DNA from: a virus
DNA length: 38,626 bases
Strand: one strand, 5' to 3'
Virus record (IMG/VR): IMGVR_UViG_3300042465_004753
Location: 1-38,626 of that record
In this document: positions 21,048 through 36,881 of the stretch, in pieces
Numbering within the stretch: position 1 is the first letter of the stretch
How the letters are laid out: each line of letters starts with the position of its first letter
Notes under the pieces: generated by a model
What the model was told of the DNA's origin: nothing
Seen by the model: only the letters and a program-made list of their open reading frames with translations
The model's database searches: none
Program-made: the position numbers and the translations under genes

Positions 21048-22739
21048 ATGAAAAAACTACTACTTTTCCTTGGCGCGCTTGCCGCCTACGGGCAGACCGT
21101 GAGCCTGTCCGACACGCTCACCAACGCGGTTGGCGGCGGCTCGTACACCGGGCGCGTGACGGTAACCCTCAACGCGCCCGGCAACGCCTCGCCGCTGTAC
21201 TACAGCACCACCAGCCTGACCGGTTGGCAAGCGGTGTACTGTTTGGGCGTCACAGGCGCGGATTGCACGACGACGACAAGCGCGGGCACGTTTGCGGCAA
21301 CCCTCTACGCCAACAGCACCATCACGCCCGCTGGCACCAGCTACTCCGCGCGGTTCCAGCCGACGAAGGGCGCGGCATGGTCGGAAACCTGGACCGTCGA
21401 AGCTAGCGATACCAAGCTCTATCAGGTGCGCTCCACCACCGTACCCTCCCCCACCGTCACCTTCCAACCGTCACAACTCCTACTGGGCGCCGGCTACATT
21501 CCCTACGGGGCCTCCACGGGCTACGCCACCTCCCTCGCCCCCGGCACCAACGGGCACGTTCTCACGCTGTCGGGCGGGTATCCGGCGTGGGCGACGCCAG
21601 CGGCTTGCGCGACTTGCGTCACTACGGCTGGCTCTTACGCTGACCCGGCGTGGATTACTTCGCTGGCCGGGTCGAAGATTAGCGGAGCGGTGGCGAATGC
21701 TACCCTCGCGGCGTCCGCCACCGCGCTTGCCGCGAACGGTGCCAACTGCGCAGCGGGCACTTTCCCGCTTGGCGTTGATGGTTCCGGGGCGGCTGAAACC
21801 TGCACGGCGCTGCCAACGACCATCACCGGCACCGCCAACCAGATCACGGCCAGCGCTTCGACCGGGGCGGTCACGCTGTCGCTGCCTGCCACAATCACCG
21901 GGCTCGCGTCGGTGACCTCTACCAGCTTCACCGGCGCCCTCACCGGCAACGCCACCACAGCGACCGCGCTGGCATCCTCGGTCACCTCCGGGCGGCTCTG
22001 GATTGCGAATGGGACTGGTGTGCCTACGAGTGATTCGGGCCTGACGTTTGACACGAGTACGAAGGCGCTCGTGGCATCAGGTGATTTTACATTGTCTACT
22101 GACGGCAAGGCGATTCTGTCCGCGGCGGGAACGCTGTACCTAAAGCCGTCGATTACGAATACAGAGCAATATATCCAGGTCTCGCCAACCGGAACAGCCA
22201 CGATAACCGGGGTTATACTAAAGGGACAATTGAGCGGCACGACCGGCACGCGTGCCGATATCCTGCAAAGTGGCGCTGATACCATTATTCGAAATCAGAC
22301 GCTCGGCGCTGGTGCGCAGGGGGCGATAACACTTGAGCAAAACGGTAGTGTCAGGCTGAAGGTATTTGCCGCCACCGGCAATATCGCCATCGGCACCACC
22401 ACGGACCTCGGCTACGGCCTCCACGCCGCGAGCAAGGGGACGAACGGGAATTTTCTCTGCGCCGATATGACCGAAACGACAGGAACCACCCGCTGCCTGC
22501 ACATGGCTGGGCAGGGCCAAAGCGGAAACATTTGGGAGATTCGCGGGTATAACGCAACGCCTGGGAGCGGCACGCTATTTGTCGGTGTGGATGCGTCTGG
22601 ATTTCTCACCACGCAATTCTCCACTCCGTCCTCCTCGGCTGAAACCTGCACGCAGGGCCGTATCAAGTGGGACGCGAATTACATCTACCTTTGCACGGCC
22701 GCCAACACCTATAAGCGCGCCACACTCGCAGCGTTCTAA
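21048..22739 (+). CDS. Second fibre-like protein with apparent signal peptide
   Basis: The ATG at 21048 gives 563 residues; an upstream start would read across the cassette 1 gene and promoter. Residues 1-16 look like a signal peptide (MKKLLLFLGALAAYGQ). Residues 17-130 form a beta domain (SYTGRVTVTLNAPGNA, TSYSARFQPTKGAAW). A long Ala/Thr/Ser/Gly-rich shaft follows (ITGTANQITASASTG, SFTGALTGNATTATAL), and the C-terminal 35 residues (AETCTQGRIKWDANYIYLC) match a common end of phage fibre proteins. It is a probable receptor-binding protein. Only a weak ribosome site is present. Confidence 0.72.
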   Translation: MKKLLLFLGALAAYGQTVSLSDTLTNAVGGGSYTGRVTVTLNAPGNASPLYYSTTSLTGWQAVYCLGVTGADCTTTTSAGTFAATLYANSTITPAGTSYSARFQPTKGAAWSETWTVEASDTKLYQVRSTTVPSPTVTFQPSQLLLGAGYIPYGASTGYATSLAPGTNGHVLTLSGGYPAWATPAACATCVTTAGSYADPAWITSLAGSKISGAVANATLAASATALAANGANCAAGTFPLGVDGSGAAETCTALPTTITGTANQITASASTGAVTLSLPATITGLASVTSTSFTGALTGNATTATALASSVTSGRLWIANGTGVPTSDSGLTFDTSTKALVASGDFTLSTDGKAILSAAGTLYLKPSITNTEQYIQVSPTGTATITGVILKGQLSGTTGTRADILQSGADTIIRNQTLGAGAQGAITLEQNGSVRLKVFAATGNIAIGTTTDLGYGLHAASKGTNGNFLCADMTETTGTTRCLHMAGQGQSGNIWEIRGYNATPGSGTLFVGVDASGFLTTQFSTPSSSAETCTQGRIKWDANYIYLCTAANTYKRATLAAF

Positions 22740-22753
22740 CCGAAAGGAACCAC

Positions 22754-23110
22754 ATGAAAACCATTATCCTCTTCGCTCTCGCGCTGGGCCTCCCGGCGCA
22801 AACCCTCACCATCGCCATCGAGACGCCCACGCTCTCTAAATCCAAGACCATCACCGGCGCGCCTGTCGCCTTCGGGCTAGAGGTGTTGGAGGCTTTCCGG
22901 CTGACCCAATACACGGAAGTCAACGGGGCCAGGGTCTATAAATACGCCGATGTGGGCGAGGTACTGCAAGCGCTGATTGTCGGCAAGATTTTGGAGCTTG
23001 GCGACCAGTACCCGACCAGCGCAACGGCCGCGCTACGGGCGGCAAAGGCAAAGGCCGAAGCCGATATTGCGGCAGCGCGAAAGGCGCTGCAAGCGGCGGC
23101 CGTGAAATAA
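22754..23110 (+). CDS. Small secreted helical protein
   Basis: AAAGGAA precedes the ATG. The 118-residue product starts with a signal-peptide-like MKTIILFALALGLPAQ, followed by a beta/alpha middle (LSKSKTITGAPVAFGLEVLE) and an Ala/Lys-rich C-terminal helix (AALRAAKAKAEADIAAARKA). It lies 14 bases after the fibre gene and before the terminator, so it is probably the last gene of that operon, perhaps a fibre partner. Family unknown. Confidence 0.6.
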   Translation: MKTIILFALALGLPAQTLTIAIETPTLSKSKTITGAPVAFGLEVLEAFRLTQYTEVNGARVYKYADVGEVLQALIVGKILELGDQYPTSATAALRAAKAKAEADIAAARKALQAAAVK

Positions 23111-23165
23111 CCATGCATGCCCTCGCCTAACGGCCGGTGCCGGCGAACTCGCCCACCGCTGAACG

Positions 23166-23202
23166 AAAAGCCCGCCCACCCTAACCGGTGCGGCGGGCTT
23201 TT
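23166..23202 (+). terminator. Intrinsic terminator after fibre operon
   Basis: AAAAGCCCGCC and GGCGGGCTTTT form an 11-bp stem with a 15-base loop and end in TTTTTG. The A/T arms make it usable in both directions. It separates the tail/fibre genes from the early region. Confidence 0.88.
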
Positions 23203-23253
23203 TGCGTTTCATGTGCTATAGAGCAGTTTGTTTGCGGCGTGTCTGGTTTGGTG

Positions 23254-23282
23254 TTGACCAGCGCGGCTCGGTGGGTTACCTT
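23254..23282 (+). promoter_or_regulatory. Sigma70-like promoter, early region
   Basis: TTGACC, a 17-base spacer and TACCTT, with six bases to the GTG at 23289. Geometry equals that of the cassette promoters, though the -10 is poorer. It is the only candidate promoter seen for the long operon that follows. Confidence 0.55.
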
Positions 23283-23288
23283 TGGTTT

Positions 23289-23468
23289 GTGAGCAACACA
23301 GGAACCACACAGGAGCAGCGGAAGGCGGTGCAAATTACGATACTGCCAAGCGTTCACACGTCCATCATTACGCGGGCTAAAGAGCTTGGGGTACACCCTG
23401 GGCGTCTGATTGAGTGGGCTTGGGGTGTTGCAAGCAAGCGCAAACCGCAGACGGAACGAGCTAAGTAA
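23289..23468 (+). CDS. Possible ribbon-helix-helix regulator, leaderless
   Basis: The GTG at 23289 is six bases after a -10 hexamer, giving 59 residues; an in-frame ATG at 23202 lies inside the terminator and upstream of the promoter, so it is rejected. The sequence KAVQITILPSVHTSIITRAK, then ELGVHPGRLIEWAWG, fits strand-helix-helix proteins of the Arc/CopG type that bind DNA as dimers. As the first gene after the terminator it may regulate early transcription, including its own promoter. Confidence 0.55.
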   Translation: MSNTGTTQEQRKAVQITILPSVHTSIITRAKELGVHPGRLIEWAWGVASKRKPQTERAK

Positions 23469-23507
23469 ATAGACTAGGCAAGCCGACGCGGGCCAAGGAG
23501 AAAGAGC

Positions 23508-24305
23508 ATGATTAAAACTGAAGTAGTGCGAATTACGCCAGCGATAGCTGAGGAGTGGTTGCGGCATCGCAATATCACCAATCGATCATTAAGCCGAAGG
23601 TCTATCGCCATGATGGTAGACGATATGCGAGAAGGGCGCTGGCAGGTGACCGGAGAGGCGTTGATTTTTGACGCAAACGGGCGCTTGACCAACGGCCACC
23701 ATCGGCTTACGGCCTGCATGAAGGCAGGGGTGCCGTTTACCTCGCTGGTGGTTCGCGGAGTAGAACCGTCTGCGGTGTTTGTGCAGGATACCGGGCGCGC
23801 TCGGACGGCTGCAAACATGGCCGCGATCATGGAGATTCCGCAGGGCAAGTTTTCCACGGCAGCGGCGCGAATTTTGCTATGTTACGAGGGCGGAGACTTC
23901 ATAACCACCTATACGGGTGGAGTTGGAGGACCAACGAAAACGCAAATCATCGAGGACTGCGAGTCTCGACCGCGGTTCTCTGAATCCGTGCTCGCTGGCC
24001 GTAAATGCTCCGAGGTGTTGTTTGCCGCCGTCGCGTCGGCGTGCCACTGGCTGTTTAGCCAAAAAGACAGATCCCTCGCGGAAGAGTTTTTCCGCAAAGT
24101 TCAATCCGGAGCGAGTATGGAGGCCGGCGACCCGGTGTTAAGACTTCGGCAGAGGGTTCAATCGAAAAACAAGCTAAAGACCACCGAAATGCTGGCGCTA
24201 ACGATCAAGGCGTGGAATCTTACTCGCGCAGGGAAGCCGCTTAACCGTCGTTTGGAATGGCGACCATCAACTGCCCCAAGCGAAGCGTTTCCGGTCGTCA
24301 AATAA
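23508..24305 (+). CDS. ParB/Srx-like domain protein
   Basis: This 265-residue protein has AAGGAGAAAG upstream. The first 90 residues hold a ParB-like core: AMMVDDMREGRWQVTGEAL, then GRLTNGHHRLTACMKAGVPF (about 57-76), where the N-G-H-H-R-L motif corresponds to the G-x-R-R/H-R nucleotide-binding element. The remainder is helical and basic (LRLRQRVQSKNKLKTTEML). Phage proteins of this group are of uncertain role; nuclease, CTPase or DNA-binding functions are known among relatives. It opens the early operon. Confidence 0.72.
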   Translation: MIKTEVVRITPAIAEEWLRHRNITNRSLSRRSIAMMVDDMREGRWQVTGEALIFDANGRLTNGHHRLTACMKAGVPFTSLVVRGVEPSAVFVQDTGRARTAANMAAIMEIPQGKFSTAAARILLCYEGGDFITTYTGGVGGPTKTQIIEDCESRPRFSESVLAGRKCSEVLFAAVASACHWLFSQKDRSLAEEFFRKVQSGASMEAGDPVLRLRQRVQSKNKLKTTEMLALTIKAWNLTRAGKPLNRRLEWRPSTAPSEAFPVVK

Positions 24306-34919: not shown

Positions 34920-35411
34920 ATGACACGGTTTGAGAGAGTGGCGGTGGAAATCACCAAAGGCGTCGCTGTCGATAAGCAAACGGCGATAGCCATGAAAGGC
35001 GGAGATGCGTACAGCCCTCCACAAGAAAGCGATCAGCCAACGTATTACGCGCCACCACCGCTGCGGACGGTGCCTATCGACCCATCGTTTACCGACCTGA
35101 CCGGGAATAAATTCGGGCGGCTGACCGTGCTGGGTTTGGCAGCCGCCGGGCTAGGCGGGAAGAAAAAGCGCTGGGCGTGCCGTTGCACCTGTGGAAAGTA
35201 CTCTACCCATCGACCGTCCGCGCTGTTAGCCGGAAATGAGGACCGGTGCCACGATTGCCGTATTAAACGAGCGGCGACCGATGGGATCGGCGGGCGCTGC
35301 GTTGCGTGCGGCGGGTTGGCGCGATTTATGCCCTATTGCGGGAAGTGCGGTAAAGCGCGAGGGCGCGAGGCGCCTAGCGTTACGCAGATTGTGCTGAAAG
35401 GAGGCGTATAA
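34920..35411 (+). CDS. Zinc protein sharing a domain with the HNH gene at 483
   Basis: AAAGAGGGAG precedes the ATG. After a disordered start, residues about 57-112 read DLTGNKFGRLTVLGLAAAG, WACRCTCGKY and CHDC, matching the N-terminal domain of the HNH endonuclease at 483-1082 (DLTGQRFGRLVVIG, WKCACDCG). Residues about 125-150 add CVACGG and CGKCGK, a second zinc ribbon. No nuclease core is present. It may be a DNA-binding protein derived from, or a source for, homing endonucleases. Confidence 0.65.
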   Translation: MTRFERVAVEITKGVAVDKQTAIAMKGGDAYSPPQESDQPTYYAPPPLRTVPIDPSFTDLTGNKFGRLTVLGLAAAGLGGKKKRWACRCTCGKYSTHRPSALLAGNEDRCHDCRIKRAATDGIGGRCVACGGLARFMPYCGKCGKARGREAPSVTQIVLKGGV

Positions 35412-36412
35412 TGCCGCGCGCCCGTAACATCAAACCTGGATTCTTTGAGAGCGACGACCCGGCAAAGGTTGGGTATCCGCAGCGCCTTTTGTGGATCGCC
35501 ATGTGGACGCTGGCGGACAAGGAAGGCCGCCTGGAGTACCGCCCGACGCGGCTCAAAAAGTACGCCTTTGGCTTCGATCCGGCGACCGTGGAAGACGTCG
35601 CGCAGTGGGTTCACGACCTCCACGACGCCGGGCTGATAGTCCTTTATCCGGTCGGTTCTGTCGAGGTGATCCAGTGCGTGAACTTCCTGAAGCACCAGCG
35701 GCCGCACTATAAGGACCCGGAGAGTGAGTTCCCGCCTCCCCAAAGTTCCCCAAAGTTCCCCGGGATTTCGGTCAATGATAAGCCGATCATAGACGATTTC
35801 CCCAAAGTTCCCCAAAGTTCCCCGGGGAATCCTGGGGAAACGATTGATGATACGTCAATGATAGAGGCAAATCCCGGGGAATCCTGGGGAAACGGCCTAT
35901 CATTGGCCGATCATAGACGATTTCCCCAAAGTTCCCCAGGATTTGCCTCTATGATAGGGGGGGTTCCCGGTATGAATGTTGAATGTGGAATGTTGAATGT
36001 GGAAGGGGGAAGGGGGAATGGCGCGCTATCGCCCGCCCCGCCCCCGCCGCAGCAACTCCGCATCGACGACAGCGGGCCGGACCCGGAAAAGCTTTTCCAG
36101 ACGGCGGCGAAGTTCGCATGTGAGAACTTGCCAGCCGGCGGCGATGTCGGGCTTACGGCTTCAGCCATGCGCTCGGAGTTTCAGAAGTCGGCCAGCTTCG
36201 AGGGTAACCCGGCCGGGTTCTGCCTGGCCTACACTGCCAGCGTCCGCAAGTGGCGCGCGGCATATGACGCCAACCCGGATCTGCGGACGAAGCAGGCGCA
36301 ATGGTGGACCCGCGACGGCACGTACTCGCAATCCCCGCCGGCACCACGGGCACCGCGGCGGTTCGGGCCGGTGGACCTGAAGGCCGGGTTGGAGGTGGAC
36401 GATGCCCTGTAA
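35411..36412 (+). CDS. Replication initiation protein with internal origin
   Basis: The start overlaps the previous stop by one base and GGAGG lies upstream. The N-terminal 100 residues (RNIKPGFFESDDPAKV, RLLWIAMWTLADKEGRLEY, DVAQWVHDLHDAGLIVLY, VNFLKHQRPHYKDPE) are typical of phage winged-helix replication initiators. Residues about 110-210 are a low-complexity linker encoded by iterons and short repeats. Residues about 215-310 are a helical C-terminal domain that probably recruits host helicase or loader. The layout mirrors lambda O, whose gene also contains the origin. Confidence 0.82.
   Translation: MPRARNIKPGFFESDDPAKVGYPQRLLWIAMWTLADKEGRLEYRPTRLKKYAFGFDPATVEDVAQWVHDLHDAGLIVLYPVGSVEVIQCVNFLKHQRPHYKDPESEFPPPQSSPKFPGISVNDKPIIDDFPKVPQSSPGNPGETIDDTSMIEANPGESWGNGLSLADHRRFPQSSPGFASMIGGVPGMNVECGMLNVEGGRGNGALSPAPPPPQQLRIDDSGPDPEKLFQTAAKFACENLPAGGDVGLTASAMRSEFQKSASFEGNPAGFCLAYTASVRKWRAAYDANPDLRTKQAQWWTRDGTYSQSPPAPRAPRRFGPVDLKAGLEVDDAL
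35738..35952 (+). repeat. Iteron cluster, probable replication origin
   Basis: Five perfect copies of CCCCAAAGTT start at 35738, 35748, 35800, 35810 and 35924. Variants CCCCGGGATT (35758) and CCCCAGGATT (35934) lie in the same direction. Inverted copies are AATCCTGGGG (35828, 35880) and AATCCCGGGG (35870). A 32-base direct repeat (35782-35813 and 35906-35937) and a 14-bp inverted repeat (35861-35874 with 35939-35952) frame the array. The 10-bp unit keeps sites on one face of the helix, as expected for initiator binding. Confidence 0.85.
35974..36022 (+). repeat. 7-bp tandem repeat
   Basis: Seven heptamers in a row: GAATGTT, GAATGTG, GAATGTT, GAATGTG, GAAGGGG, GAAGGGG, GAATGGC. It directly follows the iterons inside the replication gene. 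The strand is purine-rich. It could aid unwinding or simply be a slippage-prone linker. Confidence 0.85.
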
Positions 36413-36881
36413 CCGCGGCACGGCCACCGCCCAGCTCAACCGAATGTCGAATCTCCAGGGGTTCGGCTTCATGGCGCCGGAGACGTTCACCTCGCTCATT
36501 GACGTGCTCGCCAGTCATTCCGACGATGCGGCGCACGCTCGGGCGGCGGTGGATCTGCTATTGGCCCGCAAATCGCTTCCAACGGGGCCGCAAGACATCG
36601 CGGACGCGCTGAACGAGGCGAAGCATGGGCAGCCGGTAAACGAGGCACCTCGGGCAAATACGGGAGGGTGCGGGCGCGAGATTCCAGGGTTGACGTACTG
36701 GGACTACGATCCAAACTCGCGCGGGCTTGAAAAGATCCACCACCCGGCACGATGCGCAGGTGGAAAAATCCGCGTCACGATGTGGGTACGGGTGGAGGGC
36801 ATGGTGGACGATCAAGGGAATCTGCTCAAGCAGCCGTACCACTTCAGCGGGAAATGCCGTTGCGCTGGTGGCACGCTATGA
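36402..36881 (+). CDS. Hypothetical protein, 159 residues
   Basis: The ATG overlaps the replication gene end by 11 bases. A helical N-terminal half (FTSLIDVLASHSDDAAHARA, GPQDIADALNEAK) is followed by a domain with several cysteines (GGCGREIP, ARCAGGKI, KCRCAGG) that may bind zinc. In its position just after the initiator it could be a helicase-loader-like or accessory replication protein, but no motif proves it. Confidence 0.55.
   Translation: MPCNRGTATAQLNRMSNLQGFGFMAPETFTSLIDVLASHSDDAAHARAAVDLLLARKSLPTGPQDIADALNEAKHGQPVNEAPRANTGGCGREIPGLTYWDYDPNSRGLEKIHHPARCAGGKIRVTMWVRVEGMVDDQGNLLKQPYHFSGKCRCAGGTL

Follow-up and report, generated by a model that had tools for sequence, protein, structure and literature searches.

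The replication origin of phage lambda lies within the initiator gene O, with its repeats midway along the gene, between the parts that encode the N- and C-terminal domains. Beside the lambda iterons is an A+T-rich tract that has almost all of its purines in one strand (PMC5043065). Among lambda and the Stx phages, the number of iterons varies between relatives, with linker changes that stay in frame (PMC7466680). In the plasmids RK2 and F, the DUE is bound as a single strand by Rep proteins (PMC10797057).

Here we describe a locus in the IMG/VR virus record IMGVR_UViG_3300042465_004753, all 38,626 bp of which (61% GC) were analyzed and are referred to below as the window. Genes for terminase, portal, head, and tape-measure proteins come first in this record, and recombination and replication genes come last. 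An initial annotation, made from the letters alone, had placed an iteron origin inside the initiator gene, as in lambda O. Comparison with 113 genes of the initiator family supports that placement, and we consider it highly probable, judging from sequence comparison, that repeats embedded in the linker-coding part of the gene are the replication origin of this freshwater phage.

The initiator gene and its neighbors

The initiator gene (35411 to 36412, + strand) encodes a protein of 333 amino acids. Residues 1 to 117 match four PHROG replication initiation families (16167, 12556, 2149, and 1408) with E values from 1.5e-32 to 4.3e-15, and by sequence the N-terminal domain is a direct member of this group. 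The PHROG entries, as returned, make no mention of an internal origin. In the AlphaFold2 model, residues 7 to 97 (35429 to 35701, +) form a putatively DNA-binding winged-helix domain, with pLDDT values mostly above 90 and with winged-helix matches. Residues 115 to 220 form a linker with pLDDT below 50 that is predicted to be disordered, and the C-terminal part is helical, with lower certainty. What kind of winged helix is this? Structure comparison returned generic winged helices only, with Z scores of up to 8.8; 4pt7 and 4pql, whose chains are titled initiator or DNA-binding N-domain, scored 7.1 to 7.4. A sequence search of solved structures with the N-terminal profile gave only weak, unrelated matches, and the protein matched no Pfam family at an E value of 0.1 and, likewise, none in NCBIfam. 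Immediately upstream, the gene at 34920 to 35411 overlaps the start of the initiator gene and has matches to PHROG 18493 and, in part, to an HNH endonuclease family (374). Several relatives, too, have nuclease genes 5′ of the initiator.

The next gene downstream (36402 to 36881, +) overlaps the initiator gene, encodes 159 amino acids, and has no family match. By synteny, it occupies the position of the helicase loader in relatives. Its product has a helical N-terminal domain and several cysteines toward the C terminus and is a candidate small helicase loader. Family and homologue searches with this protein found no homologue outside the window's clade. In a fold search, the SPP1 helicase loader G39P (1no1) scored a Z of 5.2 over 64/67 residues, which is within the noise; many unrelated chains outscored it.

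Across the family, the initiator usually precedes a helicase loader or a helicase. The next gene encodes a lambda P-like loader in HK639 and a DnaC-like loader in Louie, yong1, Shamal, Aurca01, F10, and Mx8, while DnaB helicase comes directly after the initiator in JBD44 and two genes on in Bordetella phage IFTN4. Neither DnaB nor a DnaC-like ATPase (PF03796, PF01695) was found in the window's record or in eight relatives, records that may be fragments. As the search of the record gave no DnaB, the replicative helicase recruited is probably that of the host. The C-terminal domains of the family seem to be exchanged, as one member from a Dethiobacter MAG (L182:2501-3484) has a DnaD domain for its C-terminal part (TIGR01446; E value, 6.5e-19).

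Two classes of repeats and a 7-bp array

All of the repeats in the window sit between the coding part for the N-terminal winged helix and that for the helical C-terminal part, within the linker, as had been noted. The initial annotation also described about ten 10-bp iterons in both orientations, and this was borne out. Class A, as we call it, has the sequence TTCCCC(A/G) and occurs at 11 sites in the initiator gene, 7 on the + strand and 4 on the − strand, mostly in 10-bp steps; 1,000 dinucleotide shuffles gave a mean of 0.7 sites and a maximum of 4. The entire 38.6-kb window has 11 TTCCCCRR sites, every one of them inside the array, and on the + strand class A units fall in each of the three reading frames. 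The earlier inventory of class A, a direct repeat, and a 7-bp array was correct as far as it went but missed a second class. Class B, (C/G)(A/G)AT(C/G)ATA (SRATSATA), is in 11-bp phase and is found complete at 5 sites (the shuffles gave a mean of 0.15 and a maximum of 2); the entire window has 9 ATSATA cores, 8 of them inside the array. The two classes alternate along it.

Read from its 5′ end, the array opens with three class A units in 10-bp steps (35737 to 35765, +), the first of which is a shortened twelfth unit that starts at 35737. These are followed by two class B units in 11-bp phase (35773 to 35792, +), three class A units in 10-bp steps (35798 to 35825, +), and two inverted class A units (35822 to 35839, −). 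Then come two class B units in 11-bp phase (35847 to 35864, +), two further inverted class A units (35874 to 35891, −), two class B units that face each other (35897 to 35916, without an assigned strand), and two class A units (35922 to 35941, +). A class B core (35950 to 35956, without an assigned strand) adjoins the 7-bp array. A direct repeat of 32 bases had been reported; the repeat is there, but it is an exact 33-mer, with copies at 35782 to 35814 and 35906 to 35938 (both +) that are 124 bp apart.

The 7-bp tandem repeat was likewise seen before. It runs from 35973 to 36021 (+), follows GAATGT(T/G) with units TGAATGT, GGAATGT, and GGAAGGG, is purine rich on the + strand, and is a putative unwinding element. 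It is by far the strongest period-6-to-8 array in the record, with a score of 27 versus 11.5 for the runner-up, and is also detected by TRF. The array forms a local GC minimum of 45 to 47%, after which comes a block of 72 to 82% GC; over 35960 to 36019, the purine content is 0.60 to 0.78, and AT-richness is only moderate. The repeat unit had been called GC-rich; the repeat array has 51% GC in a genome of 61% GC. The view that there is no obvious unwinding element, a point on which the locus was held to differ from lambda, is probably wrong. GC skew had been proposed as a check, and its sign changes near 22 to 23 kb rather than at 35.8 kb; with the main genes all oriented in one direction, it is a weak and uninformative test of an origin. 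Within 22000 to 24000, the skew passes from mostly negative to consistently positive at the border between structural and early genes.

Close relatives of the window's initiator are encoded at 46 loci. In the 12 that were compared in detail, both classes and the 7-bp array are kept, while the number and orientation of the modules vary. Class A keeps to a single strand in L013 and others, but the window's sub-clade and the relative L010 have the middle sites in inverted orientation. The strongest linker autocorrelations in these relatives include 10, 11, 52, 63, 83, and 124 bp, and the gene lengths (1002, 1044, 1047, 1050, and 1119 nt) stay in frame. With lengths in frame, modules variable, and class A in three frames, it is the DNA pattern that is kept, not the peptide. 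In L010 and L013, class A carries GATTCC, the core of the family heptamer described below. One locus (L039:3001-3989) is without one 52-bp module, which shifts the frame; the loss may be genuine, or the assembly may have collapsed a repeat. A 19-mer class A pattern was also matched at 11 loci outside the clade, none of which has class B sites and which mostly hold just the pattern's own two TTCCCC; these are probably chance or unrelated repeats.

A two-part layout across the family

How does the window compare with more distant relatives? These were gathered by their N-terminal domain from annotated phages, viral contigs, and bacterial genomes and reduced to 113 nonredundant full genes. Their N-terminal domains are about 32 to 53% identical to that of the window, and the hosts, by record title, include Proteobacteria, Firmicutes, Bacteroidota, Actinobacteria, and Planctomycetes. 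Comparison with the same gene in related phages, one of the checks first suggested, brought out a shared layout of two parts: 11-bp iterons and then a tandem array of 7 to 8 bp about 22 bp downstream (median gap, 22.5 bp). In the 95 members with at least two heptamers, the 110 bp upstream of the array have match fractions of 0.39, 0.37, and 0.37 at lags of 11, 22, and 33, versus about 0.25 elsewhere, and the array itself gives autocorrelation peaks at 7, 8, 14, 15, and 21. The iteron sequence differs between phages, repeats of AAGCACCATGC being one example. The heptamer CTGATTC or a near variant is present in the linkers of 102 of the 113 genes, with a density per kb of 3.86 on the coding strand of the gene versus 0.18 on the other strand and 0.17 in the flanks. 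Period-6-to-8 scores of at least 8 are reached by 86% of the linkers versus 4% of flanking segments of equal length. On average over the 95 members, GC content (0.44), base-pair stability, and purine content (0.33) all reach their lowest point within 400 bp at the array.

What about the genes that have no CTGATTC in the linker, namely, that of the window and nine others? Eight of those nine have a different array of period 5 to 8 with purine/pyrimidine asymmetry; such alternative arrays include GGAACAG(G) in actinophages, GGATRG in Nitzel, and GGGAA in a Klebsiella phage. The ninth, L141, has a low period score but a repeated pyrimidine tract. In the window, CTGATTC-type heptamers are absent from the linker and form no cluster elsewhere in the record. 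Its initiator gene nevertheless has the layout of the family, with class B and A repeats followed by the GAATGTK array in the linker. This array has the family position, a period of 7, the same kind of asymmetry, and an ATTCC core in its reverse complement, while its strand orientation is opposite to that of the family majority. Given the divergent sequence and the opposite strand, what the likeness to the family array shows is analogy, not necessarily homology.

A scan of DNA alone with the 15-mer CTGATTCCTGATTCC found the initiator family around or near the word in 67 of the 80 loci among the matches listed. Since this one word retrieves the family, the origins of many phages and prophages could be placed from sequence. 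It is also present without a recognizable family initiator in the stretch at L322, L327, L329, L331, L332, L335, L337, L371, L385, L386, L394, and L398. These twelve loci may be chance matches, other initiators, or relocated origins.

Is it the DNA or the peptide that is under selection? In the family linkers, CTGATTCCTGATTCC encodes the peptide LIPDS, which was counted 99 times, in genes that range from 37 to 68% GC. Its ATT and GAT codons are used in 99/99 cases and its CTG and CCT codons in 96/99, while elsewhere in these genes ATT, GAT, CTG, and CCT account for 28, 45, 37, and 20% of the codons for their respective amino acids. When a unit of the CTGATTC type starts in frame 2, it gives an in-frame TGA; 0 of 377 CTGATTC, CTGAATC, or CTGATAC units are in that frame, whereas 28 of 34 CGGATTC units, one base from the stop, are. 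Furthermore, in five contigs (L330, L336, L349, L368, and L380) the initiator gene has no heptamer array, and an array is located 2.33 to 2.40 kb upstream, where there is no credible gene. Iteron-like repeats lie upstream of the relocated array in most of the five. Three of these contigs have complete initiators, of only 237 to 238 amino acids. The relocated arrays of L349 (5723 to 5771) and L368 (167 to 215) have seven perfect TGATTCC units each, and no open reading frame passes through seven such units in that direction. We regard the five modules as a natural transplant of the gene-internal origin. Near-fixed codons, the T-to-G change that avoids TGA, and the non-coding copies demonstrate that selection acts on the DNA and not on the peptide.

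Proposed mode of action and likeness to known systems

The proposed mechanism has three steps. (i) The N-terminal winged helix would bind the repeats, most likely class B, as its fold and family suggest; class A would be a second set of binding sites or would extend class B. (ii) The nucleoprotein complex would strain the duplex and open the adjoining array at 35973 to 36021. (iii) The C-terminal domain and the product of the next gene would bring in the replicative helicase, as indicated by synteny in the relatives. That the 7-bp array is the unwinding element is probable, because a short tandem array occupies this place in nearly all relatives, where, averaged over members, stability is lowest and strand asymmetry highest. 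That the array sequence is conserved across most of the family points to recognition of one of its strands as a single strand, a behavior known for DnaA-trios and for plasmid Rep proteins at DUE repeats.

Which class of repeats does the initiator bind? The initial annotation took the 10-bp unit TTCCCCAAAG, our class A, as the iteron. The repeats are real; as the family iterons are phased at 11 bp and the 11-bp class of the window is B, class A is probably not the counterpart of the family initiator sites, and class B most likely represents them. The same origin could instead have class A as the initiator sites, with class B secondary and bound by another protein or later, a reading to which we give an appreciable but lesser chance of being right. 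Class A is the more numerous (11 versus 5 full class B sites), is tightly spaced in steps of about one helical turn, and is kept in all close relatives. Its 10-bp step does not fit the family phase, however, and with the heptamer core GATTCC inside it in L010 and L013, it may be an expanded element of the unwinding type.

Other readings dispense with part or all of the origin. It is improbable that the 7-bp array is a neutral microsatellite with no role, the iterons alone being important. Tandem repeats do expand easily in disordered, tolerant linkers, and the unit and strand differ in the window, the actinophages, and a few others, but the same unit at the same place and on one strand only in 102 of 113 members across phyla, the excess of periodic linkers over flanks (86% versus 4%), the stop-avoiding base change, and the retention of the array in relocated non-coding origins all speak against neutrality. 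A regulatory or maintenance site (an operator for initiator autoregulation, a structured RNA, or a site for partition or incompatibility) is quite improbable as well. Plasmid iteron arrays can also serve copy control or partition, and the inverted repeats of the window fold strongly as RNA (z, −5.6); yet L013 folds differently and less strongly (z, −3.1), inversion of class A is confined to L010 and the sub-clade of the window, the array is in mid-gene, far from the gene start, and across the family it occurs together with a melting-type array and a gene for helicase loading. RNA structure itself was rejected, as clade members do not share one fold and the folding is a consequence of the inverted repeats. 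The least probable reading by far is that the repeats are the by-product of a selected linker peptide, whether low-complexity, repeated, or a short motif such as LIPDS. Although the linker is predicted to be disordered and tolerates repeats, and LIPDS recurs in relatives, this explanation is effectively ruled out by repeats that lie on either strand and in every reading frame, by fixed codons (ATT and GAT, 99/99), by T-to-G changes exactly where TGA would arise, and by arrays without coding in five contigs; the actinophage arrays, moreover, encode other peptides. Finally, CTG is the start site of the Escherichia coli primase, but the window array has no CTG, and a primase-start reading of the heptamers therefore cannot be general.

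A gene-internal origin thus remains the preferred reading of the repeats. In its broadest form, phage and prophage origins in several phyla would share an undescribed unwinding element of 7 to 8 bp and of the TGATTCC type, which the initiator reads by sequence, probably as a single strand. The element would usually lie inside the initiator coding sequence, where it dodges TGA stops, and could move with the iterons to non-coding DNA; the lineage of the window would have changed the sequence and strand of the array, with its iterons now in two interleaved classes. We hold the chances for and against this combined statement to be evenly balanced. Targeted searches of the open literature, with most subscription journals outside their scope, found no description of this origin family and no paper with TGATTCCTGATTCC, so the two-part origin family with a TGATTCC heptamer appears to be new, though an earlier description is possible. 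The comparison puts a family-wide origin signature in place of a guess from a single sequence, and the coding and non-coding copies, together with TGA avoidance, provide a natural experiment on how the same DNA carries two codes. Whether small phage initiators recognize their unwinding element by its sequence, like DnaA and plasmid Rep proteins, also becomes directly testable.

Among known systems, the replisome organizers with Phage_rep_org_N and the DnaD-domain initiators resemble this family in having an N-terminal winged helix and an exchangeable C-terminal domain. Phage_rep_org_N gave weak matches in three family members (best E value, 0.029), and the window protein matched neither it nor the DnaD domain. 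The DnaA-trio, the 13-mers, and the DUE repeats of RK2 and F are similar in that short repeats lie beside the initiator sites and are conserved in sequence and not just in AT content; here, in contrast, the unit is 7 to 8 bp, and the initiator, a winged-helix protein of phages, matches none of theirs in sequence. The closest likeness in way of working is to the lambda origin, although by sequence the window protein does not belong to the lambda O family, whose Pfam entry matched neither it (at an E value of 0.1) nor any of 63 members (at an E value of 1). As in lambda, the repeats occupy the linker-coding stretch between the N- and C-terminal domains of the initiator, and the iterons are followed by what would be an easily melted, strand-asymmetric tract, here the 7-bp array. 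In named relatives, the next gene is a helicase loader, HK639 being a family member with a P-like loader. Unlike in lambda, the iterons are of 11 or 10 bp and have other sequences, the melting tract of the family is a defined tandem repeat of 7 to 8 bp that is moderately AT-rich and in most members kept in sequence across phyla, and some members carry the module in non-coding DNA.
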